Shown: piece after piece, positions 25,833 to 59,387 of the stretch
Position numbering within the stretch: the stretch's first letter is position 1
How the letters are laid out: the number at the start of each line of letters is the position of its first letter
Origin: Rhodobacter sp. NTK016B
Lineage (GTDB): Bacteria; Pseudomonadota; Alphaproteobacteria; Rhodobacterales; Rhodobacteraceae
Direction of reading: 5' to 3'
NCBI RefSeq assembly: GCF_017303295.1
Contig: NZ_JAFKOK010000007.1
Coordinates: 62,001 to 126,000 of the forward strand
Length of the DNA stretch: 64,000 nucleotides
Notes under the pieces: generated by a model
Told to the model about the DNA's origin: nothing
The model's input: the letters and a program-made list of their open reading frames with translations, nothing else
Databases searched by the model: none
Made by a program: the position numbers and the translations under genes

Positions 25833-25850
25833 ATTCATTTGACATATAAT
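25833..25850 (+). promoter_or_regulatory. candidate promoter and LysR-type box of ABC operon
   Basis: ATTCATTTGACATAT (25833-25847) fits AT-N11-AT, a T-N11-A LysR-type motif. It differs at one base from the site at 32071-32085 (other strand). It overlaps a perfect -10 hexamer TATAAT (25845-25850), 40 bp before the operon start codon. Confidence 0.45.
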
Positions 25851-25890
25851 GCACCGCGCCCCTACGGTCCGCCCGTCTGGGAGGCACGAG

Positions 25891-26691: not shown

Positions 26692-27440
26692 CAGCGCTCA
26701 AGGGTCTGGCCCTTCCCGCAGCCTTGCTGTTGGCGTGGCAACTGGCGGTCATGCTGACCGGGCTGCAAAGCGACACCATCGCCGCGCCGGACGCGATTTT
26801 CGCGGCCCTCGGGCGCGGACTGACCGAGCCCGCCTTCTGGGCCGATACCGGCGATACGCTGGCGGCAGGCGGCATGGGGCTGGCGCTGGGTTTCGTGCTG
26901 GGGACGATGTCGGGCGTTCTGTTCGGGCTGATCCCGCCGGTTGGCCGCGTGATGCGTGTGACGGTGGAATTGCTGCGCCCGCTGCCCGCCATCGCCATCC
27001 TGCCCATCGCGCTGCTGATCTTCGGCTTCGGCTATCGGCTCGAGGTCGCCATCGTGGCCTTCGGCACCTGTTTCCCCGTCCTCGTGCTGACCGAAGCGGC
27101 GGTGCGCCAGATCGAGCCCCGGCTGTCCGAGGTCGCGCGGGCGCTGGCGCTGAGCCCCGGAGCGCGGGTGCGCAAGATCGTCCTGCCCGCCGTGCTGCCG
27201 CGCCTTTTCGTGGCGCTGCGGCTGGCTGCCGGGATCGGGCTGATCATCGCCATCACCGTCGAGATTGCCGCCAACCCGATCGGGCTGGGCGCGCGGCTGA
27301 TGCAGGCGTCGAACTCGCTGCGGCCCGCCGATATGTACGCGACGTTGTTCTGGATCGGCGCCATCGGCTGGGCGCTGAACTGGGGGATGCTGCGGCTGCA
27401 GCTCTGGCTGTTCCCGGCCACGAAAGGAGCCGCGCAATGA
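26688..27440 (+). CDS. ABC transporter permease 1
   Basis: Membrane subunit of the SsuC/TauC type, 250 residues with about six membrane segments. The coupling (EAA) motif is ALALSPGARVRKIVLPAVLPRLFVAL, recognised from the EAA-x3-G-like pattern in EVARALALSPGARV. Start and stop both overlap neighbours by ATGA, so the operon is tightly coupled. It probably forms a heterodimer with the next permease. Confidence 0.9.
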   Translation: MTALKGLALPAALLLAWQLAVMLTGLQSDTIAAPDAIFAALGRGLTEPAFWADTGDTLAAGGMGLALGFVLGTMSGVLFGLIPPVGRVMRVTVELLRPLPAIAILPIALLIFGFGYRLEVAIVAFGTCFPVLVLTEAAVRQIEPRLSEVARALALSPGARVRKIVLPAVLPRLFVALRLAAGIGLIIAITVEIAANPIGLGARLMQASNSLRPADMYATLFWIGAIGWALNWGMLRLQLWLFPATKGAAQ

Positions 27441-28201
27441 GATATCTGCATCGCGGTCTGTGGTTTCTGGCCTCGCTGGCGCTGCTGGTCGGGCTGATCT
27501 GGGTCTGGCAGCTTCTGGCCGATGCGCGCATCCTGCCGCGCGCCTTCTTTCCCGGCCCCGACCGGACGTGGCGCGCGCTGAGCCGTGGCTTTGCCTCGGG
27601 CACGCTGGTGGCCGATACGCTGACCACCCTGCGCCGTCTCGCACTGGGCTGGGCGCTGGCCTCGCTGCTGGGGGTGGGGCTGGGCGCGCTGGTGGGCACG
27701 TCGAAATGGGCGCAGGCCTGGATCGCGCCGATCTTCGAGGTGCTGCGCCCGCTGCCTGCCTCGGCCATCGCGCCGGTTCTGCTGCTGTTTCTGGGCCTGA
27801 CCGACAGCATGATCCTGACGCTGATCGCCTTCGGCGCGCTCTGGCCGATGCTGCTGACCACGGTGCACGGCTTTTCCAACATCCATCCGCGCCGCAAAGA
27901 GGTCGCGCGTTCGCTGGGCATGGGGCGCGGCGCTTTCATCGCCAAGATCGCCCTGCCGGGCGCGCTGCCCGACATCATGGGCGGTCTGCGGCTGGGCCTG
28001 ACGGTGGCGCTGATCCTTGTCGTGGTGGGCGAGATGATCACCGTGCAGGGCGGGCTCGGGGCCCGGATCCTGCTGGCTGCGCGGGCCTTCAATGCCGCCG
28101 AGATCTTTGCCGGGGTCGCCCTTCTGGGCGTCATCGGTCTGGTGACCAATGCCCTGCTGGGGCTGGTCGAAACACGGGCATTGCGCTGGCAGCGACGCTG
28201 A
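27437..28201 (+). CDS. ABC transporter permease 2
   Basis: Second inner-membrane subunit, 254 residues. The EAA-type loop reads EVARSLGMGRGAFIAKIALPGALPDIM (key part EVARSLGMGRGAF). The paired permeases are unlike each other outside the core, consistent with a heterodimeric channel. The start at 27437 lies in the ATGA overlap with permease 1. Confidence 0.9.
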   Translation: MRYLHRGLWFLASLALLVGLIWVWQLLADARILPRAFFPGPDRTWRALSRGFASGTLVADTLTTLRRLALGWALASLLGVGLGALVGTSKWAQAWIAPIFEVLRPLPASAIAPVLLLFLGLTDSMILTLIAFGALWPMLLTTVHGFSNIHPRRKEVARSLGMGRGAFIAKIALPGALPDIMGGLRLGLTVALILVVVGEMITVQGGLGARILLAARAFNAAEIFAGVALLGVIGLVTNALLGLVETRALRWQRR

Positions 28202-28245
28202 GCGCGCTGCCCGCAGAAATGCTAACCATGTCGGGAGGACCTGGA

Positions 28246-29190
28246 ATGAACCGCAGAACCTTGATGATGGGCACCGCTGCCCTGATGATGACCGCCCTGC
28301 CGCTGCAGGCGCAAGAGCGCACCCAGGTGACGCTGCTTTACACCGCGACCACCGGTTTCATGACCGCCTGGGTCGCGGCGGATCAGGGCTTCTTTGCTGA
28401 TCACGGCGTCGATGTCGAACTGCAACTGGCGCAGAACGGCTCGATCATCGTCGCGGGCGTGGTCTCGGGCTCGGCGCAGGTCGGGCTGCCCACGCCGACG
28501 GTCGCGCTGCAGGCCATCGAGAACGGTCTGGACCTGCGCACCTTCGCATCGACCAACATCTTCCCCGAGACGTCGAATGCCGGCGTCGTGGTCGGGGCCG
28601 AGAGCGGGATCGAGGGCGCGGCGGATCTGGTCGGCAAGACCGTTGGCGTGCCGGGAATCGGCGGGCTTCTGGACGTGACCATGCGTCAGTGGCTGATCTC
28701 GCAGGGCGTTGATGTGGGCGATGTGAACATCGTCGAAATCGCGCTGCCGCAAACGGGCGACGCGATCCGTGCCGGGCAGGTCGATGCCGTGGCCAGCGTC
28801 GATCCGTTTTCGAGCCGCGCGGTCGATATGGGCGTGGGGCGCCTGATCGGCAACTATCTTGACGTCATCCCCGATGGCTCGGCTGCCGGGATCTTCGTCA
28901 CCACCGCCGACTGGGCCGAAGAACATCCCGAGGCGATCACCGGCATGCAGCTTGCGCTGGACGAGGCCGCCGATTTCATCCGCGAGCACGACGCCGAAGC
29001 GCGCGAGAGCATCACGCGCTACACGACGCTTCCCGCGCCGGTCGTGGCGCATGTGCCCTTCCCGAATCTGGGCGGTGCGCTTGAGCCGGAAACGAGCCTC
29101 GGCTTCTGGAACGAACTGGCGGTCGAACAGGGTCTGATCTACGAACCGGTTGACCTCGAGACGTTCGTGATCCCCTTCCCGACCGAATAA
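28246..29190 (+). CDS. ABC transporter substrate-binding protein (NMT1/SsuA type)
   Basis: Periplasmic binding protein of 314 residues, with a signal peptide ending ALPLQA near residue 22. The NMT1/SsuA-like fold is indicated by the WVAADQGFFADHGVDVEL motif near the mature N-terminus and by GSAQVGLPTPT. A CGGGAGGA site precedes the start. Family members bind nitrate, sulfonates, pyrimidines or aromatic acids such as phthalate, so the ligand is open. Confidence 0.9.
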   Translation: MNRRTLMMGTAALMMTALPLQAQERTQVTLLYTATTGFMTAWVAADQGFFADHGVDVELQLAQNGSIIVAGVVSGSAQVGLPTPTVALQAIENGLDLRTFASTNIFPETSNAGVVVGAESGIEGAADLVGKTVGVPGIGGLLDVTMRQWLISQGVDVGDVNIVEIALPQTGDAIRAGQVDAVASVDPFSSRAVDMGVGRLIGNYLDVIPDGSAAGIFVTTADWAEEHPEAITGMQLALDEAADFIREHDAEARESITRYTTLPAPVVAHVPFPNLGGALEPETSLGFWNELAVEQGLIYEPVDLETFVIPFPTE

Positions 29191-29258: not shown

Positions 29259-30224
29259 ATGAAACTCGCAACCCTCGACAACGCGACGCCGGACGGGCGC
29301 CTGCATGTCGTCAGCCGCGACCTGTCGCGCTCTGCCCCGGCTCAGGCCGTGACGACGATGCAGGCCCTGATCGAAAGCTGGGACACCTACGCCCCGGCGC
29401 TTCAGGCCGAGTATGAGGCGCTCGACGCGGTGGGCGGCCAGCCCTTCAACCCCGCCAAGGCTCTCGCGCCGCTGCCGCGCGCGTGGCAATGGCTGGACGG
29501 GTCGGCCTATGAAAGCCACGGTACCCTGATGGCCAAGGTGTTTGGCATCGACAACCACGCCGACAAGGAACGGCCGCTGATGTATCAGGGCCTGTCGGAT
29601 CATTTCCTTGCCCCGAGCGCCGATGTCCCGCTGCCGACCGAGGATGACGGCATCGATTTCGAGGGCGAGTTCGGCGTGATCTGCGACGCGGTGCCGATGG
29701 GCACCGATGCGGCCACTGCGCGCGGGCATATCCGGCTGCTGGTACAGATCAACGACTGGTCGCTGCGCGCGGTCGCCCCCATCGAGATGCGCACGGGCTT
29801 CGGCTGGGTGCAGGCGAAACCGGCCTGCTCGATGGCCCCCGTGGCTGTCACGCCCGACGAACTGGGCGATGCATGGCGCGACGCGCGCATCGACCTGCCG
29901 CTGGTGGTCGACTGGAACGACGAGCGTTTCGGCGCGGCGGGCGGCTATGACATGGGCTTCGGATTCGATCAGCTTGTCGCCCACGCCGCGCGCACCCGCA
30001 AGCTGGTGGCGGGGACGGTGATCGGCTCGGGCACCGTGTCGAATGAGAATTACCGCGAGATCGGCTCGTCTTGCATCGCCGAGCGGCGCGGTATCGAGAT
30101 GCTGGACGAAGGGGCCGCGCGCACCGGGTTCATGCGTTTCGGCGACCGCGTGCGGATGGAATGCCGCATGGCCGATGGCACGCCCCTGTTCGGTGCCATC
30201 GACCAGCAGGTCGTCAAAGGCTGA
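29259..30224 (+). CDS. fumarylacetoacetate hydrolase family protein
   Basis: A 321-residue FAH-superfamily enzyme. These proteins hydrolyse, decarboxylate or hydrate beta-diketo and hydroxymuconic-type acids from aromatic ring cleavage. The divalent metal ligands are E135 and E137 in DFEGEFGV and D166 in INDWSLR. The conserved GSGTVSNEN motif near the C-terminus is also present. It follows the ABC genes on the same strand, and its last 11 bases overlap the 3' end of the convergent amidohydrolase gene. It may provide the last step of the catabolic route in this region (inference). Confidence 0.88.
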   Translation: MKLATLDNATPDGRLHVVSRDLSRSAPAQAVTTMQALIESWDTYAPALQAEYEALDAVGGQPFNPAKALAPLPRAWQWLDGSAYESHGTLMAKVFGIDNHADKERPLMYQGLSDHFLAPSADVPLPTEDDGIDFEGEFGVICDAVPMGTDAATARGHIRLLVQINDWSLRAVAPIEMRTGFGWVQAKPACSMAPVAVTPDELGDAWRDARIDLPLVVDWNDERFGAAGGYDMGFGFDQLVAHAARTRKLVAGTVIGSGTVSNENYREIGSSCIAERRGIEMLDEGAARTGFMRFGDRVRMECRMADGTPLFGAIDQQVVKG

Positions 30225-31248
30225 ACAGCGCCTCGGCATTGCCCCCCATGATCGCCGCGCGGTCATGGGCGGGCAGGGCCTCGGCCAGCGTGTCGGGGCG
30301 GCAATCCGCCATGTCGAACGGGTAATCCGTGCCGAACAGGATCCGTCCCGCCCCCATCCGCGCCACAAGGCTACGCAACTGCTCGGGGTCGAAAACGACG
30401 GTATCGACCCAGATCCGCGACAGGTAATCGGACGGCCGCTCACGGCACTGACGCGCCTCGGGCCGCACGCGCCATGTGTGATCGAGCCGCCCGATATAAG
30501 CCGGCAGATACCCGCCCCCATGCGCGCCGATCAGCTTCAGGCCGGGGAAGCGATCCAGTACGCCCGAGATGATCAGCGAAGACAGCGCGATGGTGGTTTC
30601 CAGCGGCTGACCGATCGTGTTTGACAGATAGAACGACGACAGCCGCGACCCTAGCGAGGTGCCGAGCGGATGGATGAAGACCGGCAATCCGGTTTCTTCG
30701 GCCGCGTGCCAGACCGGATCGAAATCCGGGTCCGACAATTCCCGCGCGCCGACCGAGGCCGAGATCTCGATGCCCTTGAGCCCCGTCGCCCTGGCCTGCC
30801 GGATCTGATCGGCGGCCAGGTCGGGATGCTGCATCGCCACCATGCCCATCCCCGCCAGTCGCTCGGGCGCCCGCGCGACCAGCGCGGCAACGGCGGCGTT
30901 GGTGGCGGCGACCAGATCATTGGCCAGCGCGGGATCGGCCCAATAGGCGTAGAGATGCGGCGAGGGCGAGACGACCTGCAGGTCGATGCCCATCAGGTCC
31001 AGATCGGCCAGCCGCTTGTCCAGTGACGCCATCCGCGCCCCGGCGGCAGGCAGCATCACCGCGCGGTTATGCGCCATCGAGGCGGCGCCGGTGCCCGCCG
31101 CCTGCGCCTGAAACTCGGCCAGCCGTTCGGGGCGTCCGTCGAGCAGGGCCTCGGCATCGGGGGCGCCGCAATGGCCGTGCATGTCGATCACGCGCGGAAC
31201 CGCGACGCGGGGCAGGGCGGTGTCGGGCAGCGGGTTGAGCGCGCTCAT
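30214..31248 (-). CDS. ACMSD-like amidohydrolase/decarboxylase
   Basis: A 344-residue TIM-barrel metal hydrolase of the amidohydrolase 2 family, which includes aminocarboxymuconate semialdehyde, resorcylate and isoorotate decarboxylases. The metal-binding motif is DMHGHCG near the N-terminus. Further ligands lie in VFIHPLGTS and in KLIGAHGGGYLPAYIGRLDH. The catalytic aspartate is in ILFGTDYPFD. Its start overlaps the cyclase stop in an ATGA, so the two are coupled. Decarboxylation of an aromatic or muconic-type acid is a reasonable inference. Confidence 0.85.
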   Translation of the reverse strand: MSALNPLPDTALPRVAVPRVIDMHGHCGAPDAEALLDGRPERLAEFQAQAAGTGAASMAHNRAVMLPAAGARMASLDKRLADLDLMGIDLQVVSPSPHLYAYWADPALANDLVAATNAAVAALVARAPERLAGMGMVAMQHPDLAADQIRQARATGLKGIEISASVGARELSDPDFDPVWHAAEETGLPVFIHPLGTSLGSRLSSFYLSNTIGQPLETTIALSSLIISGVLDRFPGLKLIGAHGGGYLPAYIGRLDHTWRVRPEARQCRERPSDYLSRIWVDTVVFDPEQLRSLVARMGAGRILFGTDYPFDMADCRPDTLAEALPAHDRAAIMGGNAEALFSL

Positions 31249-32018
31249 TCGTCGAAGATCGCGACGGCGCGCACCCAGCCGGCCGAGCCTTTCTCGACCT
31301 TCACTGGAAAGGCGCAGACGGTGTAGCCCGTGGCCGGCAGCGTTTCGAGATTGGACAGTTTTTCCATGTGGCAATAGGCGGCTTCGGCCCCGGCCTTGTG
31401 GCCTTCCCAGGCGAGCGCCTTGTTGCCGGTCTCGGCGATCTGGCGCTTTTGATGGACCAGCGGGGTGTCCCAGCTCCAGGCGTCGGTGCCGCAGACCCGC
31501 ATCCCGCGTTCGGTCATCCACAAGGTCGCCTCGCGTCCGATGCCGCAGCCCTTGGACAGGTAATCGTCATGGCCATAGCGCAACCCGGCCGAGGTATTTA
31601 CCAGCACGATATCGCCCGGTTGCAGGTCGTGGCCGATGCGTTTGAACTCGGCCTCGATTTCGGCGGCGGTGACCACATGGCCATCGGGCAGGGCGCGGAA
31701 ATCCAGCTTCACGCCCGGCCCCATGCACCAGTCCAGCGGCACCTCGTCGATGGTGATCGCTCGCTCGCCGTTATTCATCGTCGGGTGGTAATGCCACGGC
31801 GCGTCCAGATGCGTGCCGACATGCGTGGTGACTTCCAGCTCTTCCGAGGCCGGGCCCGCGCCGCCCAGCATTTCCGACGGCTCAATACCCAGCATCGCCG
31901 CGAAATCCGTCGCCCCGTGCGCGTGATCGAGATAACGGATCTTCGGGACCAGAGGCGGCGGGTCCGACTTGATGCCCGCCTTCAGCGTTACAGACAGATC
32001 GACAATACGACGCGGCAT
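31245..32018 (-). CDS. cyclase family protein (kynurenine formamidase-like)
   Basis: A 257-residue metal-dependent hydrolase of the cyclase/KynB family. The metal motif THVGTHLDAPWHYH matches HxGTHxDxPxH. The start at 32018 has GGGGGG seven bases upstream; ATG 32024 is too close to it. Family members hydrolyse N-formylkynurenine, isatin or related amide and lactam bonds. It is the first gene of a leftward two-gene unit, divergent from a LysR regulator gene that probably controls it. Confidence 0.87.
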   Translation of the reverse strand: MPRRIVDLSVTLKAGIKSDPPPLVPKIRYLDHAHGATDFAAMLGIEPSEMLGGAGPASEELEVTTHVGTHLDAPWHYHPTMNNGERAITIDEVPLDWCMGPGVKLDFRALPDGHVVTAAEIEAEFKRIGHDLQPGDIVLVNTSAGLRYGHDDYLSKGCGIGREATLWMTERGMRVCGTDAWSWDTPLVHQKRQIAETGNKALAWEGHKAGAEAAYCHMEKLSNLETLPATGYTVCAFPVKVEKGSAGWVRAVAIFDE

Positions 32019-32117: not shown

Positions 32118-33059
32118 GTGCGTCTGAACCGTCTCGACATGAACCTGATCATCGCGCTTGAGGCGATCTTGCGGCTGCGCTCGGTCACGGCGGCTGCGGG
32201 TGAGCTGAACCTGACCCAGCCCGCCGTCAGTCAGGCGCTGCGCCGCCTGCGCGAGCATTTCGACGACCCCATCGTCAGCCTTGCCGGGCGGCGGATGCGC
32301 CCGACCGAGTTCGGCGAGCAATTGTTCGTCGCGGCCACGCAGCTTCTGAACGAGACACGCCATTTCTCGCAGATGCGCCCCGGCTTCGATCCGGCCTCGA
32401 CCGAGCGGAAGTTCTCGATCATCGCGTCGGATTTCGTTCTGAAGGTGCTCTTTGCGCCGCTTCTGCCGGTGCTGGCGCGCGAAGCGCCGGGCGTGACCCT
32501 GCAGATGGTGCCTATCGACGCGCCCTCGGACGCACGGTTCCAGCGTGGCGAGGTGGATTTCGCGGTGATCCCGGATCGCTTTCTGTATGACGGCCATCCC
32601 CACAGGTTGCTCTTCACCGACGATTTTGTCTGCGTCCTGAGCGAGGACCATCCCGACATCGCCGACAGCATGAGCGCCGAGACCTATCTGTCGCTGCGCC
32701 ATGTCATCACCGAGTTCGGCGGCACGTGGCGCGGCAGCCATTTCGAGCAATGGGCGCTCGATACCGCGATCGAGCTGAACGTCGCCTGCAGCGTGCCCAG
32801 CTTCGCGATGCTGGCCGATTGTCTGGTCGGCACGCCCTATGTGGCCACCATGCATCGCAGCCTGTGGAACAGCCTGCCGCCGGGAACGGGGTTGCGCGCG
32901 GTGCCGCATCCTTTGCCGGTCCCGCGGATTTCCGAGAACCTGCAATGGCACGAGATCCGGGAATTCGACAGCTCGGTCCGCTGGTTTCGCGACCTCGTGA
33001 TCCGCGTCGCGCGCGAGCAGTTTCCGGATACCGAAGCAGAGCCGGTCAGTGGGCCCTAG
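32118..33059 (+). CDS. LysR-family transcriptional regulator
   Basis: A 313-residue regulator of the NodD/NagR-like branch. The N-terminal winged helix-turn-helix is RSVTAAAGELNLTQPAVSQALRRLREHFDDP, with key helix TQPAVSQALRRL. The effector-binding domain follows from about residue 90. The GTG start at 32118 has AAGGCAGG upstream. It is divergent from the cyclase-amidohydrolase unit, the classic layout for LysR control. Its stop codon overlaps the stop of the convergent TolC-like gene in CTAG. Confidence 0.92.
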   Translation: MRLNRLDMNLIIALEAILRLRSVTAAAGELNLTQPAVSQALRRLREHFDDPIVSLAGRRMRPTEFGEQLFVAATQLLNETRHFSQMRPGFDPASTERKFSIIASDFVLKVLFAPLLPVLAREAPGVTLQMVPIDAPSDARFQRGEVDFAVIPDRFLYDGHPHRLLFTDDFVCVLSEDHPDIADSMSAETYLSLRHVITEFGGTWRGSHFEQWALDTAIELNVACSVPSFAMLADCLVGTPYVATMHRSLWNSLPPGTGLRAVPHPLPVPRISENLQWHEIREFDSSVRWFRDLVIRVAREQFPDTEAEPVSGP

Positions 33060-37257: not shown

Positions 37258-37472
37258 GGGGCCTCGGGGGAATGGCGGGCACCGGGCCCGTGATGGGGCG
37301 ATTTTCGGCGCATCGCCGCGCGGCTGCAAGGCATTACGTTCCGGCAGGGGAATGCACGACGCGGCGTAGCGCGGGGGCAACGGGACCGGGGCCGGGCGCA
37401 GTTGCGGGACTTGCGTCATGGGGCGGGATAAGCGCGCCTGCATCGCTTTCGTCAATGCATGGAATTTAAACT

Positions 37473-37802: not shown

Positions 37803-39731
37803 ATGCAGAGCGAAACGAATAACCCCGAGCCTTTGGCACGGGCGATGGAGCAGATCACCGGCCTTGTGGCGGTGATCGCGGTGACGGGGATTCTGGCCGG
37901 GGCGGTCATCGTGGTCGGCGACGTGCTGGCGCGCTGGCTGTTCGGCACCGCCATCGTCGCCCTCAACGAAATCATGTCGAGCGTCTTTGCCGTCGCGGTG
38001 GCCGCGACGCTGCCTGCTGGGGCGGCACGCAGGGTCAATCTGCGCATCGACCTGCTGGGTGCGCAGACCGGGCCCCGGATGACTGCGTGGCTGACGCTGA
38101 TCGGCTCGCTGATGCTGGCGGGGTTCTTCGCTCTGCTGGCGTGGCGGCTGTCGGTGCTGGGGCTGCGCTATCATGTGCAGGGCCGCTCGACTTCGATCTG
38201 GAACTGGCCGCTGGCGCCCACCTATTTCGCGATGGCGGGGTTCATGGCGCTGGCGGGTCTGGTGCAATTGGTCAATGCCGCGCAGGATCTGCGCCGGGCG
38301 CTGAGCACCCGGCGTGGGGCAGGGACGCGCCCGGTCGTGATCGTGCTGGCCGTGGCCTTGGCGATCCTTGCAGGCGGCGGGCTGATCTGGGGCTGGACCG
38401 ATTTTACCGGGCTTTCCTCATGGGCCGGTGCCAATCCGGGGGCGGCGGTGGCTGCCGCGTTTGTCGTGCTGTGGCTCGGCGTGTTGCTGCAATTGCCGCT
38501 CGCCACAGTGACGGCGGCGATCGGGCTGGCGGGAACGATGCTGTATCTCGGCGGCGCGACGGCGGGGAATGTGTTTGCCGGGGACAGCGCCGATTTCCTG
38601 CGCGATCCGCAGGTGGCGACGCTGCCGCTGTTCCTGATCATGGGCGCCTTCGCGGTGGCTGCCGGTGTGTCGGATGACCTGTTCCGCGTGGCGCAGGCCT
38701 TTCTGGGCGGGGTGCGCGGCGGGCTGGCCTATGCCACCGTCGCGGGATGCGCGGGCTTCGGCGCGGTGAGCGGCAATTCGGTCGCGACCTCGGCCACGTT
38801 CGGGCGGCTGGCCTTGCCCGAGATGACGCGGCGCGGCTATGCACCCTCGCTCTCGACCGCGACGGTCGCGGCGGGGGGAACGCTGGGCGCGCTGGTGCCG
38901 CCCTCGGGGGTGATTATCCTGTTCGCGCTCTTGACCGAGGAATCCATCGCGGCCCTGTTCGTCGCGGCGATGATCCCGGCGCTCGTGGCGCTGCTTTTAT
39001 ACTTCGCGACGATCTGGCTGACGATCCGGCTGACCCCCGGTCTGGTCCCCCATGTCGAAACGGGTGCGCGCAGCGACCTGATCCCGGCGCTGATTGGCGC
39101 GTTTCCGGTGATCGTGCTGTTCGCCGTCGTGATCGGCGGGCTTTACGGCGGGGTGTTTACCGCGACCGAAAGCGCCGCGGTGGGCGCGGTGGGCGCGTTT
39201 CTGCTGGCGCTGGGGCGCGGTCGGCTGAACCGCCACGCCCTGCTGCGGGTGTTTTCCGAGACGACGGCCTCGACCGCGATGATCTACGCGCTGATCTTCG
39301 GCGCGCTGATCTTCTCGTTCTTCATCAATCTGGGCGGGACGCCGCAGATGGTCACCGATTGGATCGGCGGGCTCGACGCGCGACCGCTGGTCATTCTGGG
39401 CGTGCTCATCGTGTTTTACCTGCTGCTGGGCTCGGTCATGGACAGTTTCGCGGTGATGGTGATTACCGTGCCGGTGGTCACGCCGCTGGTGCTGGATCTG
39501 GGCTATGACATCCTGTTCTGGGGCGTGCTGATGCTGGTGGTGGTCGAAACCGGCATGATCACGCCGCCTTTCGGCATGAACCTGTTCGTTCTGAAAGCGC
39601 TGCAGAAGGATGTGAAACTGGCGACGGTGATGCGCGGCGTGGTGCCGTTCATTCTGGCCGATCTGGTGAAGATCGCGCTGCTGGTCGCGGTCCCGGCGTT
39701 GTCGCTGTGGTTGCCATCGACCATGAACTAA
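37803..39731 (+). CDS. TRAP transporter fused small and large permease (DctQM)
   Basis: A 642-residue natural fusion of the TRAP small (Q) and large (M) membrane subunits. Residues about 1-165 are the four-helix Q domain (ARWLFGTAIVALNEIMSS). The rest is the M domain, with VAGCAGFGAVSGNSVATSATFG, the GTLGALVPPSG motif and the C-terminal ETGMITPPFGMNLF. GGAGGGAGG precedes the ATG. The transporter imports an organic acid using the sodium gradient. Its binding protein is probably the convergent DctP gene at 39802-40821. Confidence 0.92.
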   Translation: MQSETNNPEPLARAMEQITGLVAVIAVTGILAGAVIVVGDVLARWLFGTAIVALNEIMSSVFAVAVAATLPAGAARRVNLRIDLLGAQTGPRMTAWLTLIGSLMLAGFFALLAWRLSVLGLRYHVQGRSTSIWNWPLAPTYFAMAGFMALAGLVQLVNAAQDLRRALSTRRGAGTRPVVIVLAVALAILAGGGLIWGWTDFTGLSSWAGANPGAAVAAAFVVLWLGVLLQLPLATVTAAIGLAGTMLYLGGATAGNVFAGDSADFLRDPQVATLPLFLIMGAFAVAAGVSDDLFRVAQAFLGGVRGGLAYATVAGCAGFGAVSGNSVATSATFGRLALPEMTRRGYAPSLSTATVAAGGTLGALVPPSGVIILFALLTEESIAALFVAAMIPALVALLLYFATIWLTIRLTPGLVPHVETGARSDLIPALIGAFPVIVLFAVVIGGLYGGVFTATESAAVGAVGAFLLALGRGRLNRHALLRVFSETTASTAMIYALIFGALIFSFFINLGGTPQMVTDWIGGLDARPLVILGVLIVFYLLLGSVMDSFAVMVITVPVVTPLVLDLGYDILFWGVLMLVVVETGMITPPFGMNLFVLKALQKDVKLATVMRGVVPFILADLVKIALLVAVPALSLWLPSTMN

Positions 39732-39801: not shown

Positions 39802-40821
39802 TTACTCGGCCAGCGTTGCCGAGGCGTCGTCGAGCGCCTGACGGTAGATTTCAAGCGCCTCGGCGCCGCCGGGCGTGCGTTCGATATAGGACGCCTCGAT
39901 CGGGCCGCCGACGCGGTCGACCAACTCGGCCACCTGTTCCTCGGTCATCGTGTGGAAGCGCCGTTCGCCGTCGCTTTGGACGAAGGCCAGCGCCTCGGCT
40001 TCCCACGCGTCGATCGCCGCGCCGGTTTCGCGCGAGGTCTCGCAGGTCGAGTGCCGTTCCAGAATCTCCTGCGCCGCTTCGGGCAGGGCGTCGAACCGGT
40101 CGCGCATCATGAAGACCAGACCCAGACCGCCGCCCAGCGGGGCGATCAGGTGGTCGGTCGTAACCTCGTTCAGACGGAAGCCGGGGAAGGCGGTGAAGTT
40201 CATCACCAGCCCCTCGGCGGTGCCGCGCTGCAGGGCCTGATACATCTCGGGCACGTTGATCGACAGCGGTGTGCCGCCATAGGCCTGGATCAGCCCCGAG
40301 ACGACCGGGCTGCCGGTCATCACCTTCATGCCCGCCATATCCTCCATCGAGGTGGCGGGATGGTCCTGAAAATGCAGGCTGGCTTGCGGAAACTGCACGA
40401 AGAGCAGCGGCACGATATCGGCGGTTTCCTCGCCGAAACCACCGGCTTCGTAGAACAGGCAGGCCGCCAGCGCGCCCTGTTCGGCGCTCTGGACCATGAA
40501 GGGCAGGGTGGTGACCAGCGAGCGCGGGAAGCGGCCCGGATCAAAGGCGGTGATGCCGAACACCATCTGCACCACGTCGTCCTGCACACGGTCGAAGAAA
40601 TTCGTGTGGTTGACGATCATCGGCCCGTTGCGAAGCTGGATCTCCAGCACCGAGGGATCCTCGGCGTTGATCGCCTCGGCCCAGGGGGTCAGGATGCGGG
40701 TGACGAGCGGGTGCTGTTCCGGGTTCGCGGTGCCGAAGCTCAGCGTTTCCTGCGCGATGGCGGGTCCGGTTGCGAAAAGGGCCGCGCTGGACAAGAGCGC
40801 GGCGAGAGTGCGGCGGATCAT
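39802..40821 (-). CDS. TRAP transporter substrate-binding protein DctP
   Basis: Periplasmic binding protein of 339 residues with a signal peptide ending GPAIA at residue 23. The DctP-family fold is indicated by TANPEQHPLVTRILTPWAEAIN and the central HPATSMEDMAGMKVMTGSP. The family arginine that contacts the ligand carboxylate is usually in the motif L.G.K.R; here the corresponding MAGMKVM lacks that arginine, which hints at an atypical ligand. It is transcribed towards its presumed permease gene rather than in operon with it. A LysR gene lies just upstream on the same strand. Confidence 0.9.
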   Translation of the reverse strand: MIRRTLAALLSSAALFATGPAIAQETLSFGTANPEQHPLVTRILTPWAEAINAEDPSVLEIQLRNGPMIVNHTNFFDRVQDDVVQMVFGITAFDPGRFPRSLVTTLPFMVQSAEQGALAACLFYEAGGFGEETADIVPLLFVQFPQASLHFQDHPATSMEDMAGMKVMTGSPVVSGLIQAYGGTPLSINVPEMYQALQRGTAEGLVMNFTAFPGFRLNEVTTDHLIAPLGGGLGLVFMMRDRFDALPEAAQEILERHSTCETSRETGAAIDAWEAEALAFVQSDGERRFHTMTEEQVAELVDRVGGPIEASYIERTPGGAEALEIYRQALDDASATLAE

Positions 40822-40922: not shown

Positions 40923-40941
40923 GTATTGATGGAATTCATAC
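40923..40941. promoter_or_regulatory. LysR-type box upstream of DctP gene
   Basis: GTAT-N11-ATAC (40923-40926 and 40938-40941) is a dyad T-N11-A motif 102 bp upstream of the dctP start and overlapping the 3' end of the LysR gene. Confidence 0.4.
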
Positions 40942-41841
40942 CTCAGCGGCCACCGAGTCCAGCAATCGCGTCCGCAGCCAGACCAACGCCGGGTCGGTGT
41001 CTCGCATGCTGTGCCACTGGATCACCTGTTCAAGCGGCGCCAGCGTGAGAGGCGGCTCGACCACTGCCAGCCCGGGATCCTGTTCCGCCATCCGCCGGGC
41101 CAGCCGCTGCTGAACCAGCGCGATGCGGTTCGAGCCGCGCACCAGATCGCCCAGCGACGAAAAGGAAAAGGTCGTCACCGCCACGCTGACCGCGACCCCG
41201 GCGTCACGCAAGAGATGCGCGGCATAGCTCTGCCCGCCGACAGGCGGCTCCATCGCGACATGTTCGAGCGCGGCGAATGTGTCCAGATCGAGATGGCGCG
41301 CCGCCGGGTTGGCCGCGTCGAGAATGCAGACCATCGCGTCCTTGAGCAGCGTCTGCGACGGATGATCGGGCGAGGAATAGACGCGCGGTGCGATCAGCAG
41401 ATCGGTATCGCCGCGCTCAAGCTGCAGGCCGGGATAGGTGCGCTGCGGCTTGATCGTCAGCCGCATGGACGGGGCCTCGCGCGCGACCTGCTGCACGAAA
41501 GGCGGCACCACGGTGGCAAGGCTGTAATCGGACACCATCAGCGCCACGTTGCGGGTGCTGGTGGTCGGATCGAACGCGGGCGGCGTGGCAACGGCCGCCT
41601 CGATCCGCACCAGAATGTCGCGCACGGGGCCCGCCAGCGCCTCGGCGCGGGGTGTCAGTTCCATGCGCCGTCCGACCTGCACCAGAAGCGGATCCTCGAA
41701 ATACATCCGCAGCCGGTTCAGCGCGTTCGACATCGCCGACTGGGTGATCGACAGCTCTTCCGCCGCGCGGCTCACGCTTTGCAGGCGGATCAGCTTGTCG
41801 AGCGCCGCAAGCAGGTTGAGGTCGAGATTTTGAAAACGCAT
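40936..41841 (-). CDS. LysR-family transcriptional regulator
   Basis: A 301-residue regulator; the start at 41841 (MRFQNLDLNLLAALDKL) gives the normal LysR N-terminus. The winged helix-turn-helix is SVSRAAEELSITQSAMSNALNRL (key helix TQSAMSNALNRLR). The effector domain follows and is closest in character to the NodD/NahR group used for aromatic inducers. It is divergent from the six-gene catabolic operon at 41951 and lies upstream of dctP, so it probably controls both. Confidence 0.92.
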   Translation of the reverse strand: MRFQNLDLNLLAALDKLIRLQSVSRAAEELSITQSAMSNALNRLRMYFEDPLLVQVGRRMELTPRAEALAGPVRDILVRIEAAVATPPAFDPTTSTRNVALMVSDYSLATVVPPFVQQVAREAPSMRLTIKPQRTYPGLQLERGDTDLLIAPRVYSSPDHPSQTLLKDAMVCILDAANPAARHLDLDTFAALEHVAMEPPVGGQSYAAHLLRDAGVAVSVAVTTFSFSSLGDLVRGSNRIALVQQRLARRMAEQDPGLAVVEPPLTLAPLEQVIQWHSMRDTDPALVWLRTRLLDSVAAEV

Positions 41842-41874
41842 CGCCGGATTTCCAGTAATCAGGTGAATACCATA

Positions 41875-41900
41875 CATTGATACTTACAATTTCATCAATG
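41875..41900. promoter_or_regulatory. inverted repeat between LysR and catabolic operon
   Basis: CATTGAT (41875-41881) and ATCAATG (41894-41900) are perfect arms separated by 12 bp in the 109-bp divergent region. It is a candidate LysR operator. Confidence 0.5.
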
Positions 41901-41950: not shown

Positions 41951-43108
41951 GTGTTCCGCTATTTCCCCACGAATTACGTCTGGGACCTGTCGATCAACCT
42001 GTCGATCGAGATGGGGGGCCGTCTGGGCGAGATCGACGCGATGTGCGCGCCGCTGAAGGAAGCGGCGCTGACGCCCGAAGACGGCGGCACGTTGGCCTTC
42101 CGCAAGGTCTGGTCCGAAGGCGCCGACAACCTGATCGACCTTGCGCAGGACGATCTGGCCCGGGGCCGCAGCCTGTCGGCCTCGAACAAGCTGATGCGCG
42201 CGGCGAATTACCTGATCACCGCAGAACGCCTGCAGGCGCATGGCTCGGAGGGGCGCATGGCGCTTTACCGCAAGCATCTCGCGACCTTCTATCAGGCGCT
42301 GGGGCTGGGCGCGACCGGCGCGTACCGCGTCACGATCCCCTACGAGGGCAAGCATCTGTCGGGCATCTTCATGCCGGCCGAGGGCGTCACCGGCCCGCAG
42401 CCGGTGCTGGTGCAGGTCAACGGTTTCGACAGCACCAAGGAAATGCGCTTCATGGCGCAGCTGCCGGGGATGCTGGCCAAACGCGGGATTGCGTCGCTGG
42501 TGCTGGACCAGCCGGGAACGGGCGAGGCGCTGCGTCTGCAAGAGCTGACCGCGCGCCATGACAGCGAGCATTGGGCGACGCCTGTCTATGAATGGCTCGC
42601 TGCGCGCGCTGATGTTGACGAAAAGCGCATCGGCATGGAGGGGGTCAGCCTTGGCGGTTATTACGCGCCGCGCGCCGTGGCGTTCGAGCCGCGCTATGCC
42701 TGCGGTGTCAGCTGGGGCGCCAACCACGACTGGCGCGACGTGCAGAAACGCCGGCTTGAGCGTGAGGGCGAGTTCCCCGTGCCGCATTACTGGTCCCATG
42801 CCGCCTGGGTGTTCGGCGCCAAGGATACCGACGATTTCATGCAAAAGGCTGAAGGAATGCATCTGGACGGCGTTCTGGACCGCATCCGCGTGCCGTATCT
42901 CGTCATGCATGGCAAACACGACAGCCAGATCCCGCTGAAATGGGCCTATCGCAGCTATGAGCAGCTGGTGAACAGCCCGCGCCGCGAGCTTGTCATCTTC
43001 GACGAACGAACCGGCGGCGTGCAGCATTCCAGCATCGACAATTCGGGCCCCGCGCTCGACTGCATCTGCGATTTCGTGGCCGAGTCGCTCGGCGGCCGGA
43101 TCGCCTGA
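41951..43108 (+). CDS. alpha/beta hydrolase, dihydroxypseudooxynicotine hydrolase/FrsA-like
   Basis: A 385-residue serine hydrolase. The GTG at 41951 lies six bases after AAGGAGG; the GTG at 41945 is too close to it. An N-terminal helical cap domain (about 1-135) precedes the alpha/beta core. The nucleophile is S233 in EGVSLGGYY, the acid is in GKHDSQIP and the histidine in QHSSIDN. The architecture resembles 2,6-dihydroxypseudooxynicotine hydrolase, which cleaves a C-C bond next to a hydroxylated ring. Here it heads an operon with a ring-cleaving-type dioxygenase, so C-C hydrolysis of a ring-fission product is a plausible role (inference). Confidence 0.85.
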   Translation: MFRYFPTNYVWDLSINLSIEMGGRLGEIDAMCAPLKEAALTPEDGGTLAFRKVWSEGADNLIDLAQDDLARGRSLSASNKLMRAANYLITAERLQAHGSEGRMALYRKHLATFYQALGLGATGAYRVTIPYEGKHLSGIFMPAEGVTGPQPVLVQVNGFDSTKEMRFMAQLPGMLAKRGIASLVLDQPGTGEALRLQELTARHDSEHWATPVYEWLAARADVDEKRIGMEGVSLGGYYAPRAVAFEPRYACGVSWGANHDWRDVQKRRLEREGEFPVPHYWSHAAWVFGAKDTDDFMQKAEGMHLDGVLDRIRVPYLVMHGKHDSQIPLKWAYRSYEQLVNSPRRELVIFDERTGGVQHSSIDNSGPALDCICDFVAESLGGRIA

Positions 43109-43121
43109 GGAGGACGCAGAC

Positions 43122-44075
43122 ATGCAGATCATCGGACCCGATCTTCTGATCTTCGGCGTGGACGACGTGCCCGCCTGCCACGAATTCCTCACCGCCTATG
43201 GGCTCGAGACCACGGATTACACGCCCGAGAAGGGCGGCACCTTTCTGGCGCTCGACGGTACCGGGCTGGTGATCCGCGCGCGCAACGATCCCTCATTGCC
43301 GCCCGCGCTGAAAACCGGCAGCACCTTGCGTCTGCAGGTGCTGGGCGTGGTGGACGAGGACGCGCTGAACGCGGTCGAGGCCGAGCTGTCGCGTGACCGT
43401 CAGGTGCTTCGGCTGGCCGATGGCAGCCTGCGCACGCAGGACGATCAGGGCTTCGAGCTGGCCTTCCGGGTCACCACCCGCAAGCCGCTCGACCTGCCGG
43501 GCGAGAAGGTGAACGCGCCCTATGCGCCCGCCCGTGCGGCCAATGCGCTGGGCGTCACGCAGGATATGCCCGCCAAGCCTCGCACCCTGTCGCATCTCGT
43601 GCTGTTCGTGCCCGATATCGAGGGCGCGGTGGGTTTCTACCGCGACCGGCTGGGCTTTCGCATCACCGACACGCTGACCGGCGCGGGGCCGTTCCTACGT
43701 CCGCAGGCGAATGCCGATCATCACACGCATTTCTTCATTCGCACGCCCCCTTACATGCAGGGGATCGAGCATCTGGCCTTCCATCTGGGCGGCCCGACCG
43801 AGCTGATGCTCGCGGGCAGCCGGATGATGGAGCAGGGCTATGAAAGCTTCTGGGGGCCGGGTCGCCACAAATTTGGCTCGAACTGGTTCTGGTATTTCAA
43901 GAGCCCGCTGGCCTGCAATGTCGAGTTCGACGCCGACATGGACACCCATGACGACGACTGGGCGCCCCGCGAAGCCCCGATGGGCCCCGAGGCCAGTCAG
44001 GCCTTTTTGCTGCAATGGCGCGCGAAATGGGCGCCCGGCGGCGGACCTGGCGGTCCCGGCGGGCCGAAGGACTGA
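43122..44075 (+). CDS. VOC-family extradiol-type dioxygenase
   Basis: A 317-residue two-module vicinal oxygen chelate protein like type I extradiol (catechol 2,3-type) dioxygenases. The C-terminal module carries the metal triad H158 (LSHLVLF), H217 (GIEHLAFH) and E268 (NVEFDAD). The N-terminal module lacks these ligands, as is normal for the class. A Gly/Pro-rich tail ends the protein. AGGAGGA precedes the ATG, 13 bp after the hydrolase. It probably opens a dihydroxylated aromatic or pyridine ring using iron and oxygen. Confidence 0.87.
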   Translation: MQIIGPDLLIFGVDDVPACHEFLTAYGLETTDYTPEKGGTFLALDGTGLVIRARNDPSLPPALKTGSTLRLQVLGVVDEDALNAVEAELSRDRQVLRLADGSLRTQDDQGFELAFRVTTRKPLDLPGEKVNAPYAPARAANALGVTQDMPAKPRTLSHLVLFVPDIEGAVGFYRDRLGFRITDTLTGAGPFLRPQANADHHTHFFIRTPPYMQGIEHLAFHLGGPTELMLAGSRMMEQGYESFWGPGRHKFGSNWFWYFKSPLACNVEFDADMDTHDDDWAPREAPMGPEASQAFLLQWRAKWAPGGGPGGPGGPKD

Positions 44076-44101
44076 GCCGCGCCTGAGGGGAGGAGAGGCT
44101 C

Positions 44102-44473
44102 ATGTCCGAGGTCACGGATAGCGGCTTCCTATGCCGGCTGGACGATCTGGCTGAGGGCGAGGCGCGTGGTTTCGACGTGCCGGGCCTGCGCGCCAAGGTG
44201 ATCGTGGTGCGCCGGGGCGGCGGCGTTCACGGCTGGCGCGACCTGTGCCCGCATTACGCGGGCGGCACGCCGATGGCGTGGAAGCGCGACGCCTATCTGA
44301 ACGGCGCGCGCACCCATCTGGCCTGTCACGCGCATGGTGCGTGGTTCGAAATCGAGACGGGGGTCTGCGTGCAGGGGCCCTGTCTGGGCAAGCGGCTGAC
44401 CCGCGTGCCGCTGAGACTTGACGACAAGGGCGGGATCCATCTGGAGCGGCCGCCAAAGGGGAGAGAGATATGA
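44102..44473 (+). CDS. Rieske [2Fe-2S] ferredoxin
   Basis: A 123-residue soluble Rieske protein. The cluster ligands are C49 and H51 (CPH) and C75 and H78 (CHAH), with the usual surrounding GAWFE. It may donate electrons to an oxygenase; alone it has no catalytic domain. Its stop overlaps the FAD monooxygenase start (ATGA). A single-component flavin monooxygenase does not need a Rieske partner, so its true electron acceptor is uncertain. Confidence 0.88.
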   Translation: MSEVTDSGFLCRLDDLAEGEARGFDVPGLRAKVIVVRRGGGVHGWRDLCPHYAGGTPMAWKRDAYLNGARTHLACHAHGAWFEIETGVCVQGPCLGKRLTRVPLRLDDKGGIHLERPPKGREI

Positions 44474-45591
44474 CGGACAAACGGCGCATTCTGGTGGTCG
44501 GCGGCGGCTTCTCGGGCATGAGCGCGGCGATCCTGCTGGCTGAAGCCGGTAACGCGGTGGATCTGGTCGAAATCGACGCGGGCTGGCGCAGCTACGGGGC
44601 GGGGATCAGTCTGAACGGCGCGATCTTCCGGGTGTTTCACCGGCTCGGCATCCTTGAGCCGTTCAAGGACGTGGGCGCGATGACCGACGGGGTCGAAATG
44701 CGCAACCCCGCCGATGCAGTCGTGGCCCAACTGCCGACGCCTGCGCTGCAAGAGGGCGCGACCGGCAATGGCGGCGTGATGCGCCCGGTTCTGGGCAAGC
44801 TTCTGTCCGACAAGGTGCGTGCGACCGCGACCAATGTGCGTCTGGGGATCAGCGCCACGGGCTTCGACAACCGCGAAGACGGCGTGACCGTCAGCTTCAG
44901 CGACGGCACGACGGGCGAGTATGACCTCGTGATCGGCGCCGACGGGCTCTATTCCAGCACCCGCGCCGCGATCTTCCCCGACGCGCCCGCGCCGCGCTAT
45001 ATCGGTCAGGCCGTCTGGCGCGCCGTGCTGCCGCTGCCCGAAGGGGTGAACACCGTCACGATGTGGATCGGCTCGAAGCTGAAATACGGGGTGAACGCGG
45101 TCTCGGACGGGCAGGCCTATCTCTTCGTTACCGAGGATCGTCCGACCAATGAGCGCATCCCCGAAGAGGCGCAGCTTGGCATGCTGAAGGAACTGCTCGA
45201 GCGGTTCCCTGCCAAGACCGTGCAGGACATCGCAGCAGGCCTTAACGAACACAGCCACGTCATCTATCGCCCGCTCGAACAGATGCTGATGCCGCGCCCG
45301 TGGCACAAGGGGCGCGTGGTGCTTATCGGCGACGCGGTTCATGCCACGACCCCGCATATGGCGGCAGGCGCGATGATCGGCATGGAAGACGCCGTCGTGC
45401 TGGCCGACGAGCTGGCCTCGGGCGATATCGAAACCGCGCTTTCAGCGTTCCAGGACCGGCGGTGGGAACGCTGCCGCATGGTCGTCGAGAATTCGGGCCG
45501 TTTGGCCGAAATCGAGCAAGGCCACGGCACGCATGAAGAGCACACGCGCCTGATGGGTCAAACGCTGGGCGCGCTGGCCGCGCCGATCTGA
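44470..45591 (+). CDS. FAD-dependent aromatic monooxygenase (class A)
   Basis: A 373-residue flavoprotein hydroxylase of the PHBH/salicylate-hydroxylase type. The FAD/NAD motif VVGGGFSGMSAAILLAEAG is N-terminal, the DG motif is in VIGADGLYSSTR, and the GD motif LIGDAVHATTPHMAAGA is C-terminal. The protein should hydroxylate a phenolic or hydroxypyridine ring with NAD(P)H and O2, preparing it for the adjacent VOC dioxygenase. Closest functional analogues could include 2,6-dihydroxypyridine hydroxylase or salicylate hydroxylase; the substrate is not determined. Confidence 0.9.
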   Translation: MTDKRRILVVGGGFSGMSAAILLAEAGNAVDLVEIDAGWRSYGAGISLNGAIFRVFHRLGILEPFKDVGAMTDGVEMRNPADAVVAQLPTPALQEGATGNGGVMRPVLGKLLSDKVRATATNVRLGISATGFDNREDGVTVSFSDGTTGEYDLVIGADGLYSSTRAAIFPDAPAPRYIGQAVWRAVLPLPEGVNTVTMWIGSKLKYGVNAVSDGQAYLFVTEDRPTNERIPEEAQLGMLKELLERFPAKTVQDIAAGLNEHSHVIYRPLEQMLMPRPWHKGRVVLIGDAVHATTPHMAAGAMIGMEDAVVLADELASGDIETALSAFQDRRWERCRMVVENSGRLAEIEQGHGTHEEHTRLMGQTLGALAAPI

Positions 45592-45602
45592 GGAGCAGAG
45601 AC

Positions 45603-46172
45603 ATGGATTTTCCCGCGATCACCCGCGTTGTCACCGGCCATGATGCAGAAGGCCGCGCGGTGGTGTCCGAAGTCGGTCCGCTGCCCCATGTCGCGCAGAT
45701 CGAAGCCATTCCCGGCACTGTGTTTCATGAGATCTGGGCGACCGAGGGCGCGCCCGCCGCAGTCGGCAACACGCCCGACCCGACGCGCGGCCCCCTCATG
45801 CTGCCGCCACCCCGGAACGGGACGCGCATCCGCATCGTCGACATCCCCCCGGATACCGAGGATTTCCTGCAGCAGGGCGCAAGCCGGATGCAGGACGCGT
45901 TCACTCAGATCGGCGATGCCGCCGCTTCGACCGTGGCCGCGGACAGCCCGCATCCGCTGATGCACCGCACCGAGAGCGTCGATTATGGCGTTGTGCTGGC
46001 GGGGGAATGCACGCTGGTGCTGGATCGCGGCGAGGTCGTGCTGAAACCCGGCCATGTTGTCGTCCAGCGCGGCACCAATCACGCCTGGGCCAACCGCTCG
46101 GGCGCGATGTGCCGGATGCTCTTCGTGCTGGTCGATGGTGCGTATGATCCCGACATTCCGCCCGCGCCGTAA
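45603..46172 (+). CDS. cupin-domain protein
   Basis: A 189-residue protein with a C-terminal single cupin. Conserved positions include HRTESVDYGVVLAGE and the second motif GHVVVQRGTNHAWANRS, which offer His and Glu ligands for a metal. The N-terminal 75 residues are less conserved, with a PPPRNGTRIRIVDIPP stretch. It could be an isomerase, a ring-modifying enzyme or a dioxygenase of the same catabolic operon. It begins 11 bp after the monooxygenase. Confidence 0.82.
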   Translation: MDFPAITRVVTGHDAEGRAVVSEVGPLPHVAQIEAIPGTVFHEIWATEGAPAAVGNTPDPTRGPLMLPPPRNGTRIRIVDIPPDTEDFLQQGASRMQDAFTQIGDAAASTVAADSPHPLMHRTESVDYGVVLAGECTLVLDRGEVVLKPGHVVVQRGTNHAWANRSGAMCRMLFVLVDGAYDPDIPPAP

Positions 46173-46234
46173 CCGCGCGCCCGGCCTTCTCTTTCTGATC
46201 TGTCTTTCGTCTTAACACTCAAGGACCGCGCCCC

Positions 46235-47176
46235 ATGTCCGAAGCGTCCCAGTCCCAAGCGGCCAAATCCCCGGCGTCCATGCCCCGCCCGTCGAGCTTC
46301 ACCACCCTTGGCACCGGCGGCGGGCCGATGCAGAACCCGCTTGCCTCGCAGCCCGCGCATCTGGTTATGAACGGCGAGCGCCCGGTGCTGGTCGATTGCG
46401 GCGAGGGGGCGATGGGTCAGCTCAAACGCGCGGGCGTCGAGTTTCGCGACGTGCAGCAGATCTTCCTGACGCATCACCATTTCGACCATATCGGCAGTCT
46501 TTTCGCCTGCCTCGGGCTGAACATGATGACGATGCGCCCCACGCCGCTGACGATCTACGGCCCGCCGGGCACCAAGGCGATCCTCGACAACCTGATCGCC
46601 GCCTGTGACGTGCCGCAGGCGATCGGATTCGGCGTGAAGGGTCAGACCATGCCGCATCCGCGCGATTTCGTCCGGGTCGAGGAAATGACCGACGGGGCAC
46701 GGATCGAACTGGGCGAGATGGTCGTCACCGCCTGCGAGAACACCCATTACCGCCCGGAGCACGAACTGCTTGAGCCCGGCCCTGTCTCGCTGTCGCTGCG
46801 CTTCGATCTGCCGGGGCGCAGCCTGTTCTTCACCGGCGATACCGGCCCTTGCCTGGCGGTCGAGACGCTGGCGCAGGGCGTCGATTTGCTGGTCAGCGAA
46901 ATGATGGATCTCGACATGACGATGGGCCGCGTGCGCGCCAGCAACCCGCATATGCCCGACGCCGCCATCGAGAAGATCCGCACGCATCTTGCCCTGCACC
47001 ATCTCAGCCCCGAGGATGTCGGCGATCTGGCCAGCCGGGTTGGCGCGGGCCATGTCGTCGCCACGCATTTCGCCCCCGGCTGCGCCACGCCCGACACCGC
47101 CGACAGCTATGCCGCCCGCATCGCCGCGCGGTTCGGCGGTCAGGTCTCGATTGGCCGCGACCTGCAAAGCTACTGA
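46235..47176 (+). CDS. metallo-beta-lactamase-fold hydrolase (RNase Z-like)
   Basis: A 313-residue MBL-fold protein with the dinuclear metal motif H80-H81-H82-F83-D84-H85, a third ligand in CENTHY and others in FTGDTG and THFAPG. The scaffold is like RNase Z/arylsulfatase but it is encoded at the end of the catabolic operon, so hydrolysis of a small lactone or ester is more likely than RNA processing. It is separated from the cupin by 62 bp and could have its own promoter. Confidence 0.85.
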   Translation: MSEASQSQAAKSPASMPRPSSFTTLGTGGGPMQNPLASQPAHLVMNGERPVLVDCGEGAMGQLKRAGVEFRDVQQIFLTHHHFDHIGSLFACLGLNMMTMRPTPLTIYGPPGTKAILDNLIAACDVPQAIGFGVKGQTMPHPRDFVRVEEMTDGARIELGEMVVTACENTHYRPEHELLEPGPVSLSLRFDLPGRSLFFTGDTGPCLAVETLAQGVDLLVSEMMDLDMTMGRVRASNPHMPDAAIEKIRTHLALHHLSPEDVGDLASRVGAGHVVATHFAPGCATPDTADSYAARIAARFGGQVSIGRDLQSY

Positions 47177-47302
47177 CGCCTGCCGAGGCGCGCGCCGGAG
47201 AGAGACCGGCGCGTAACCCCGGTCCCGAGTGTCGAGCGCGCGCCATCATTGTGAAACCAAGCGGTATCGGTCACTTTGCTGGAATGTCTCGAATGGGAAA
47301 CG

Positions 47303-59384: not shown

Positions 59385-59387
59385 GGG

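Follow-up and report, generated by a model that had tools for sequence, protein, structure and literature searches.

Which compounds does the operon at positions 41951-47176 of this DNA serve? The window, by which we mean the whole analysed stretch of 64,000 nucleotides (Rhodobacter sp. NTK016B, contig NZ_JAFKOK010000007.1, positions 62,001 to 126,000), carries there six genes on its forward strand. They encode an alpha/beta hydrolase, an extradiol-type dioxygenase of the vicinal oxygen chelate (VOC) family, a Rieske protein, an FAD hydroxylase, a cupin and a hydrolase of the metallo-beta-lactamase (MBL) fold, and a LysR gene diverges from them. A preliminary description had read these genes as an unassigned ring-cleavage route. 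Judged by homology and gene content, the core of the operon very probably belongs to a known pathway, the cleavage of the flavonoid A ring encoded by the fde and ifc clusters. For the fuller proposal of core and sulfatase jointly, namely an fde-type operon of a Pararhodobacter relative that desulfates flavonoids first, we consider the chances about even.

All six open reading frames are present in the frame list of the window. The operon frames are intact and have the third-position GC bias typical of genes; for the hydrolase, the GTG at 41945 and the start at 41951 are both possible. Compared to two relatives, the seven genes including that of LysR show purifying selection (pN/pS 0.06-0.41). 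The arrangement of six same-strand genes with a divergent LysR was confirmed, and Pfam agrees with every family that had been named. The H-H-E triad reported for the VOC enzyme is intact as well: the alignment to BphC and its iron-binding residues gives the ligands as H158, H217 and E268, which are invariant in the window and eight relatives. The hydrolase had been likened to 2,6-dihydroxypseudooxynicotine (DHPON) hydrolase, and this enzyme (2jbw) is indeed its closest solved structure, with S233 in GVSLGG aligned with GRSLGG.

For the comparison of gene order we used 89 loci, comprising the best 80 of at least 458 VOC relatives from a genome scan, eight plasmid loci and the window; some of them are cut by contig ends. 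The VOC, hydrolase and FAD genes occur together in 79 of the 89 loci, which speaks against a chance arrangement, and 73 loci also hold the Rieske gene. The cupin was found in 46 loci, a fumarylacetoacetate hydrolase (FAH)-family gene in 67 and a cyclase gene in 70. No Herbaspirillum or Variovorax locus is among the best 80 VOC relatives. The nearest named VOC relative among the matches listed is that of Pararhodobacter marinus (94%), and the host genome has 4.84 Mb. Hydrolase, VOC enzyme, Rieske protein, FAD enzyme and cupin are 53-73% identical to those of an operon in Burkholderia anthina, where the order is LysR, transporter, hydrolase, EthD, VOC, Rieske, FAD, major facilitator superfamily (MFS) transporter, cyclase, cupin, FAH, epimerase. 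This comparison with other genomes thus shows an fde layout of the B. anthina type, which speaks against an undescribed route. In the window, the FAD hydroxylase, Rieske protein, VOC enzyme, DHPON-like hydrolase and divergent LysR are all present, the cupin lies in the operon, and cyclase and FAH genes lie at 29-32 kb. An FdeA-type transporter, an MFS transporter and an epimerase were not found in window positions 30001-57000, the rest of the genome not being searched. We do not treat these three as defining because many relatives lack one or more of them.

FdeE and its Rieske partner FdeD introduce a hydroxyl group at C8 of the A ring, and FdeC is involved in A-ring opening (PMC8552027, PMC10755750, PMC10799723). 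The A ring is putatively lost as oxaloacetate, followed by a 3-oxo-delta-lactone (PMC8552027, PMC11069340, PMC10755750, PMC11303751, PMC9422121, PMC10799723). The ifc cluster of Variovorax encodes a DHPON-hydrolase-like protein of the same kind, an FAD hydroxylase, a VOC dioxygenase and cupins, of which IfcD consumes 2-hydroxy-5-(4-hydroxyphenyl)-4H-pyran-4-one (PMC11069340). The sequence of hydroxylation, ring opening and hydrolysis that had been proposed agrees with this chemistry. The statement that no nameable pathway fits did not hold, as identical types of core enzyme are described for fde (naringenin) and ifc (isoflavone). The combination of Rieske protein, cupin and MBL enzyme had been considered unmatched; the Rieske protein has its counterpart in fde and the cupin in ifc, and the claim stands for the MBL enzyme and applies also to a tripartite ATP-independent periplasmic (TRAP) transporter next to the operon. 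Only these two seem to lie outside the published fde/ifc pathway, as far as the available parts of the papers extend.

The FAD hydroxylase contains GxGxxG and GDAxHxxxPxxxxG, and the F motif was not found in it. FdeE was published with GxGxxG and the GD motif and without the F motif (PMC9422121, PMC11303751); this match has limited weight because many FAD hydroxylases contain these motifs. The FAD enzyme of the IfcA type is 36% identical to FdeE (PMC11069340). In the compared clusters the FAD enzymes are of two kinds, with that of the window in the larger, and by elimination it seems FdeE-like rather than IfcA-like. The second kind was observed in loci L028, L080, L085, L088, L091, L093, L095, L096, L098, L099, L102, L103 and L108 (L numbers denote loci and G numbers genomes), with 33-42% identity to the B. 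anthina enzyme, which agrees with the published value for IfcA and FdeE. In P. marinus, an extra frame with 26% to the FAD hydroxylase lies between the VOC and Rieske genes (L031:10958-12214); the window has no such frame.

A missing lower pathway is ruled out by the FAH and cyclase genes, which lie 10 kb upstream of the core. In Pararhodobacter zhoushanensis, genes for LysR, cyclase, amidohydrolase, FAH and an ABC transporter directly follow hydrolase, VOC, Rieske and FAD genes, and no MBL, cupin or TRAP gene was seen in that locus. In Pararhodobacter CCB-MM2 and one metagenome-assembled genome, FAH and epimerase lie inside the core operon and the cyclase before TRAP.

The MBL-fold protein has as its best solved relative the arylsulfatase 8gyg (2.8e-65, 40% over 291 aa, full length), with a score of 224 bits compared to 58 bits for RNase Z. 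H80, H82, D84, H85, H171, D202 and H278 are invariant in the alignment, which includes the motif HxHxDH; H171, D202 and H278 are metal ligands in this family. In the tree, 8gyg is placed among the MBL proteins of the clusters with weak support. The predicted structure has a pLDDT of 86, and viral contigs gave two short, weak matches. Given the core, we lean towards an arylsulfatase step for this protein.

The transporter of the compared loci varies. When counting TRAP permeases with at least 50% to that of the window and MFS transporters with at least 40% to that of B. anthina, we found TRAP in 16 of the 89 loci, MFS in 52, both in none and neither in 21. The MBL gene occurs in 10 of the TRAP loci, 7 of the MFS loci and 1 of those with neither. 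A signal peptide is present on the MBL protein in 0/10 TRAP loci and 7/7 MFS loci, and also in L077 (Ramlibacter), which has neither transporter at these thresholds. All four sphingomonad MBL genes follow a TonB receptor gene, and the signal peptide is clear in three. Signal peptides were judged from the N-terminal letters and hydropathy, with no dedicated program; an inner start was taken for L031, L032, L039, L103 and L108, where the open frame extends upstream, and the start of L143 is incomplete. On the MBL tree, the signal-peptide label changes once; with the sphingomonads added it changes twice, and one clade is then not rejected (p-AU 0.38). The G000 paralog, L077 and the G533 copy were left out of both trees, 8gyg in addition out of the first and L144 out of the extended one; the copies of Novosphingobium PP1Y and RL4 are in neither. 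In the extended tree the TRAP label was set from the signal-peptide label, so that the pair test holds by construction. Two sphingomonad loci resemble loci for flavonoid conjugates: in L141 (Croceicoccus marinus) the MBL gene lies behind the TonB receptor gene near GH2/GH3 and glucuronate genes, and in L143 (Sphingomonas aliaeris) near GH2/GH1 genes.

Across genomes, the MBL gene is linked to the VOC gene. Of the 390 genomes searched in the order, eight contain VOC (E up to 1e-85), seven MBL (E up to 1e-50) and six both, always on the same contig and at most 7 kb apart (Fisher p 4e-11 by genome). By genus (n=139), four share both, two have VOC only and one MBL only (Fisher p 5e-6). These p-values are too small because the genomes are related. 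Neither gene was found at these thresholds in one other genome from the genus of the window, which makes the cluster accessory. Among 385 genomes of the class, MBL was found in two, that of the window and G310, the latter without VOC at 1e-40; G051 has VOC (58%) and lacks MBL. Eight plasmid records have an MBL protein with at least 40%, and seven of them were examined. The core is present in Alloyangia pacifica; Novosphingobium pentaromativorans and N. resinovorum have the FAD enzyme (40%), hydrolase (52%), cyclase and FAH, lack an annotated Rieske gene and have a distant VOC protein that matches at 33-36% along part of its length; in Croceicoccus marinus a cupin and FAH gene are nearby. Four MBL homologs below 34% were also examined: the annotated surroundings of three contain no fde genes, and that of Variovorax SRS16 (31.5%) is close to other genes with annotations for the degradation of aromatic compounds.

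Why should sulfate be involved? Sulfated flavonoids often occur at high concentrations in seagrasses (PMC11840769). Those named for the eelgrass surface are apigenin-, luteolin- and diosmetin-7-sulfate (PMC6389981), and surfgrasses contain many 7- and 7,3'-sulfates (PMC11840769). A 7-sulfate would have to be removed first because it masks the 7-OH needed for 8-hydroxylation and cleavage of the 7,8-catechol, and the conjugate would need a carrier because it is an anion. We thus propose that the TRAP transporter takes up a flavonoid anion, probably a 7-O-sulfate, and that the cytoplasmic MBL enzyme would strip the sulfate and free the 7-OH. The FAD enzyme and Rieske protein would then hydroxylate C8 and the VOC enzyme would open the 7,8-catechol, two steps known from publications on Herbaspirillum and Variovorax and assigned here by homology. 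The alpha/beta hydrolase may cut the C4a-C5 bond, which would release oxaloacetate from 5-hydroxyflavonoids and leave a pyranone or lactone. Cupin, cyclase and FAH enzymes would open and shorten this product; of these steps, that of the cupin was shown, in Variovorax. A limited literature search found no link in print between a flavonoid operon and sulfated flavonoids.

Several observations weigh against this proposal. The tested Fde and Ifc enzymes were compared by their published descriptions, and the identities given for the core genes refer to the B. anthina operon. Disruption of the hydrolase homolog in Variovorax left daidzein degradation unaffected (PMC11069340), perhaps because 5-deoxyflavonoids give no oxaloacetate. 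According to the 2016 SulfAtlas paper, family S4 was known only on an artificial substrate. The MBL gene is absent from 6 of the 16 TRAP loci, of which L033 and L102 lie on short contigs, and from 71 of the 89 loci overall. At a looser threshold of at least 25%, L042, L050 and L059 hold both MFS and a TRAP-like permease (25-49%). With no more than one or two changes of the signal-peptide label on the tree, its match to the transporter is a pattern and no independent proof. MBL relatives without nearby fde genes were found in G533 (next to genes for a class IV aminotransferase and a 2Fe-2S protein), G310 (next to glutathione S-transferases), Sphingomonas aliaeris, Novosphingobium PP1Y and RL4, the last three showing no gene for an fde enzyme in the stretch around the MBL gene. 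Furthermore, surfgrasses also contain 6-, 3'- and 4'-sulfates (PMC11840769).

The operon might also be an ordinary fde-type operon in which no sulfate is involved and the MBL-fold protein acts in the lower pathway as a lactonase or pyranone hydrolase, which we regard as rather unlikely. The gene is positioned after the cupin gene, the core operon here has no FAH gene, and MBL-fold lactonases are common. A lactone or pyranone is moreover formed in the pathway (PMC11069340, PMC10755750). However, FAH and cyclase genes exist upstream, and FAH and MBL co-occur in L032 and L034. The MBL copies in the MFS and TonB clusters have signal peptides, and a periplasmic enzyme would meet its substrate before the cytosolic flavin hydroxylase, which argues against a role in the lower pathway. 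The closest solved enzyme is an arylsulfatase, whereas the single lactonase model that matched reached 19 bits at a cut-off of 325.

It is improbable, in our view, that flavonoids are not the main substrate and that the operon is an fde-like one for another phenolic of the phloroglucinol or resorcinol type (a chromone, a phlorotannin unit or an aromatic acid) taken up by TRAP. TRAP systems usually carry carboxylates, which would suit such a substrate. So would the origin of the enzymes tested in the cited literature, which come from plant-associated bacteria (PMC11069340, PMC10799723). Nevertheless, the gene complement equals that of the flavonoid pathway, the cupin is 73% identical to that of a sorghum-rhizosphere Burkholderia, and TRAP and MFS replace one another across the 89 loci at the stricter threshold (50% for TRAP). 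The heteroaromatic or pyridine pathway of nicotine type that was first proposed appears highly improbable. The likeness of the hydrolase to DHPON hydrolase would favour it, but the same type of hydrolase occurs in the Variovorax isoflavone cluster (PMC11069340), its partners match fde, and synteny disfavours it. Riboflavin or lumichrome degradation, with an extradiol enzyme, a cupin and a Rieske component, was rejected as a candidate: its gene set differs and its Rieske part is, in the available sources, a multi-subunit dioxygenase.

Table 1. Predicted features of the operon and its surroundings (positions in the window; percentages are matches to the named relative)
Feature	Position	Strand	Evidence
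SsuABC/TauABC-like ABC transporter (ATPase, two permeases, NMT1-type binding protein)	25849..29190	+	three of four genes 80-85% to P. zhoushanensis
FAH-family hydrolase, displaced from core	29259..30224	+	PF01557; 83% to P. zhoushanensis, 75% to in-operon FAH of Pararhodobacter CCB-MM2
Amidohydrolase 2 (ACMSD-like)	30214..31248	-	PF04909; ACMSD 5e-49; 77% to P. zhoushanensis cluster
Cyclase-family hydrolase	31245..32018	-	PF04199; 84% to P. zhoushanensis
Second LysR, divergent from cyclase	32118..33059	+	LysR at same place in P. zhoushanensis
TRAP permease, DctQM fusion	37803..39731	+	PF06808/PF04290; adjoins core in relatives, e.g. L031, L032, L034, L037
TRAP substrate-binding protein DctP	39802..40821	-	PF03480; adjoins core in relatives, e.g. 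L031, L032, L034, L037
Divergent LysR regulator (FdeR position)	40936..41877	-	43% to LysR of B. anthina operon
FdeB-type alpha/beta C-C hydrolase (DHPON-hydrolase-like)	41951..43108	+	2jbw best PDB match, 3e-19; 64% to B. anthina
FdeC/IfcB-type extradiol VOC dioxygenase	43122..44075	+	Glyoxalase Pfam; H158/H217/E268; 59% to B. anthina
FdeD-type Rieske [2Fe-2S] protein	44102..44473	+	PF00355; CxH...CxxH; 53% to B. anthina
FdeE-type FAD aromatic hydroxylase	44470..45591	+	PF01494; FdeE motif set; 54% to B. anthina
Cupin, like cupin of fde-type operons	45603..46172	+	PF07883; 73% to B. anthina
MBL-fold hydrolase, probable arylsulfatase, without signal peptide	46235..47176	+	8gyg match; metal-ligand positions invariant

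Of the two ABC permeases in Table 1, the one outside the 80-85% range was scored only against the first (34%). Between the two flavonoid modules, at 33059-37282 on the reverse strand, lie genes for an outer-membrane efflux protein, FUSC and HlyD, resembling an AaeB-like efflux pump for aromatic acids. A second cyclase is encoded elsewhere in the genome (65%, G000:C11:126019-126795, L115). Downstream of the MBL gene, 47276-48199 encodes a protein of 307 aa that has a 67% counterpart in P. marinus and, at E 0.001, matches neither Pfam nor NCBIfam. Past short frames at 57-58 kb, three frames at 58092-61132 on the reverse strand resemble another TRAP system by eye.

If the core alone holds, the operon adds one more example to a known, widespread pathway. 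A more tentative idea, which we hold somewhat more doubtful than not, is that coastal bacteria turned a soil flavonoid pathway to the flavonoid sulfates of seagrasses: an MBL arylsulfatase would have joined the operon, and its location would follow the transporter, cytoplasmic next to TRAP and periplasmic next to MFS or TonB. The host, a relative of marine bacteria, may then feed on sulfated flavonoids of seagrasses. If true, this would provide the first natural substrate class for MBL-fold arylsulfatases, account for the mineralisation of antifouling sulfated flavonoids in the sea and name a marine sink for them. It would also show how exchanging the transporter and the deconjugating enzyme refits a soil pathway.

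Compared to known systems, the MBL protein shares the HxHxDH motif and its full-length identity with the MBL-fold arylsulfatases (SulfAtlas S4; PDB 8gyg). It differs from S4 in that it lies in a flavonoid operon and is apparently cytoplasmic, and its likeness to S4 runs via 8gyg, a putative member of that family. With the ifc cluster of Variovorax (isoflavone), the window has the FAD hydroxylase, VOC dioxygenase, DHPON-like hydrolase and cupins in common, whereas the available part of the ifc paper does not mention MBL or TRAP (PMC11069340). Compared to fde of Herbaspirillum seropedicae SmR1 (naringenin), TRAP and MBL are added in the window, FAH and cyclase are displaced upstream, and the FdeA-type transporter, MFS transporter and epimerase are missing from 30-57 kb. 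Both systems are alike, as far as fde is described in the available sources, in their LysR control, in the pairing of FdeE with the Rieske protein FdeD and in the dioxygenase FdeC.

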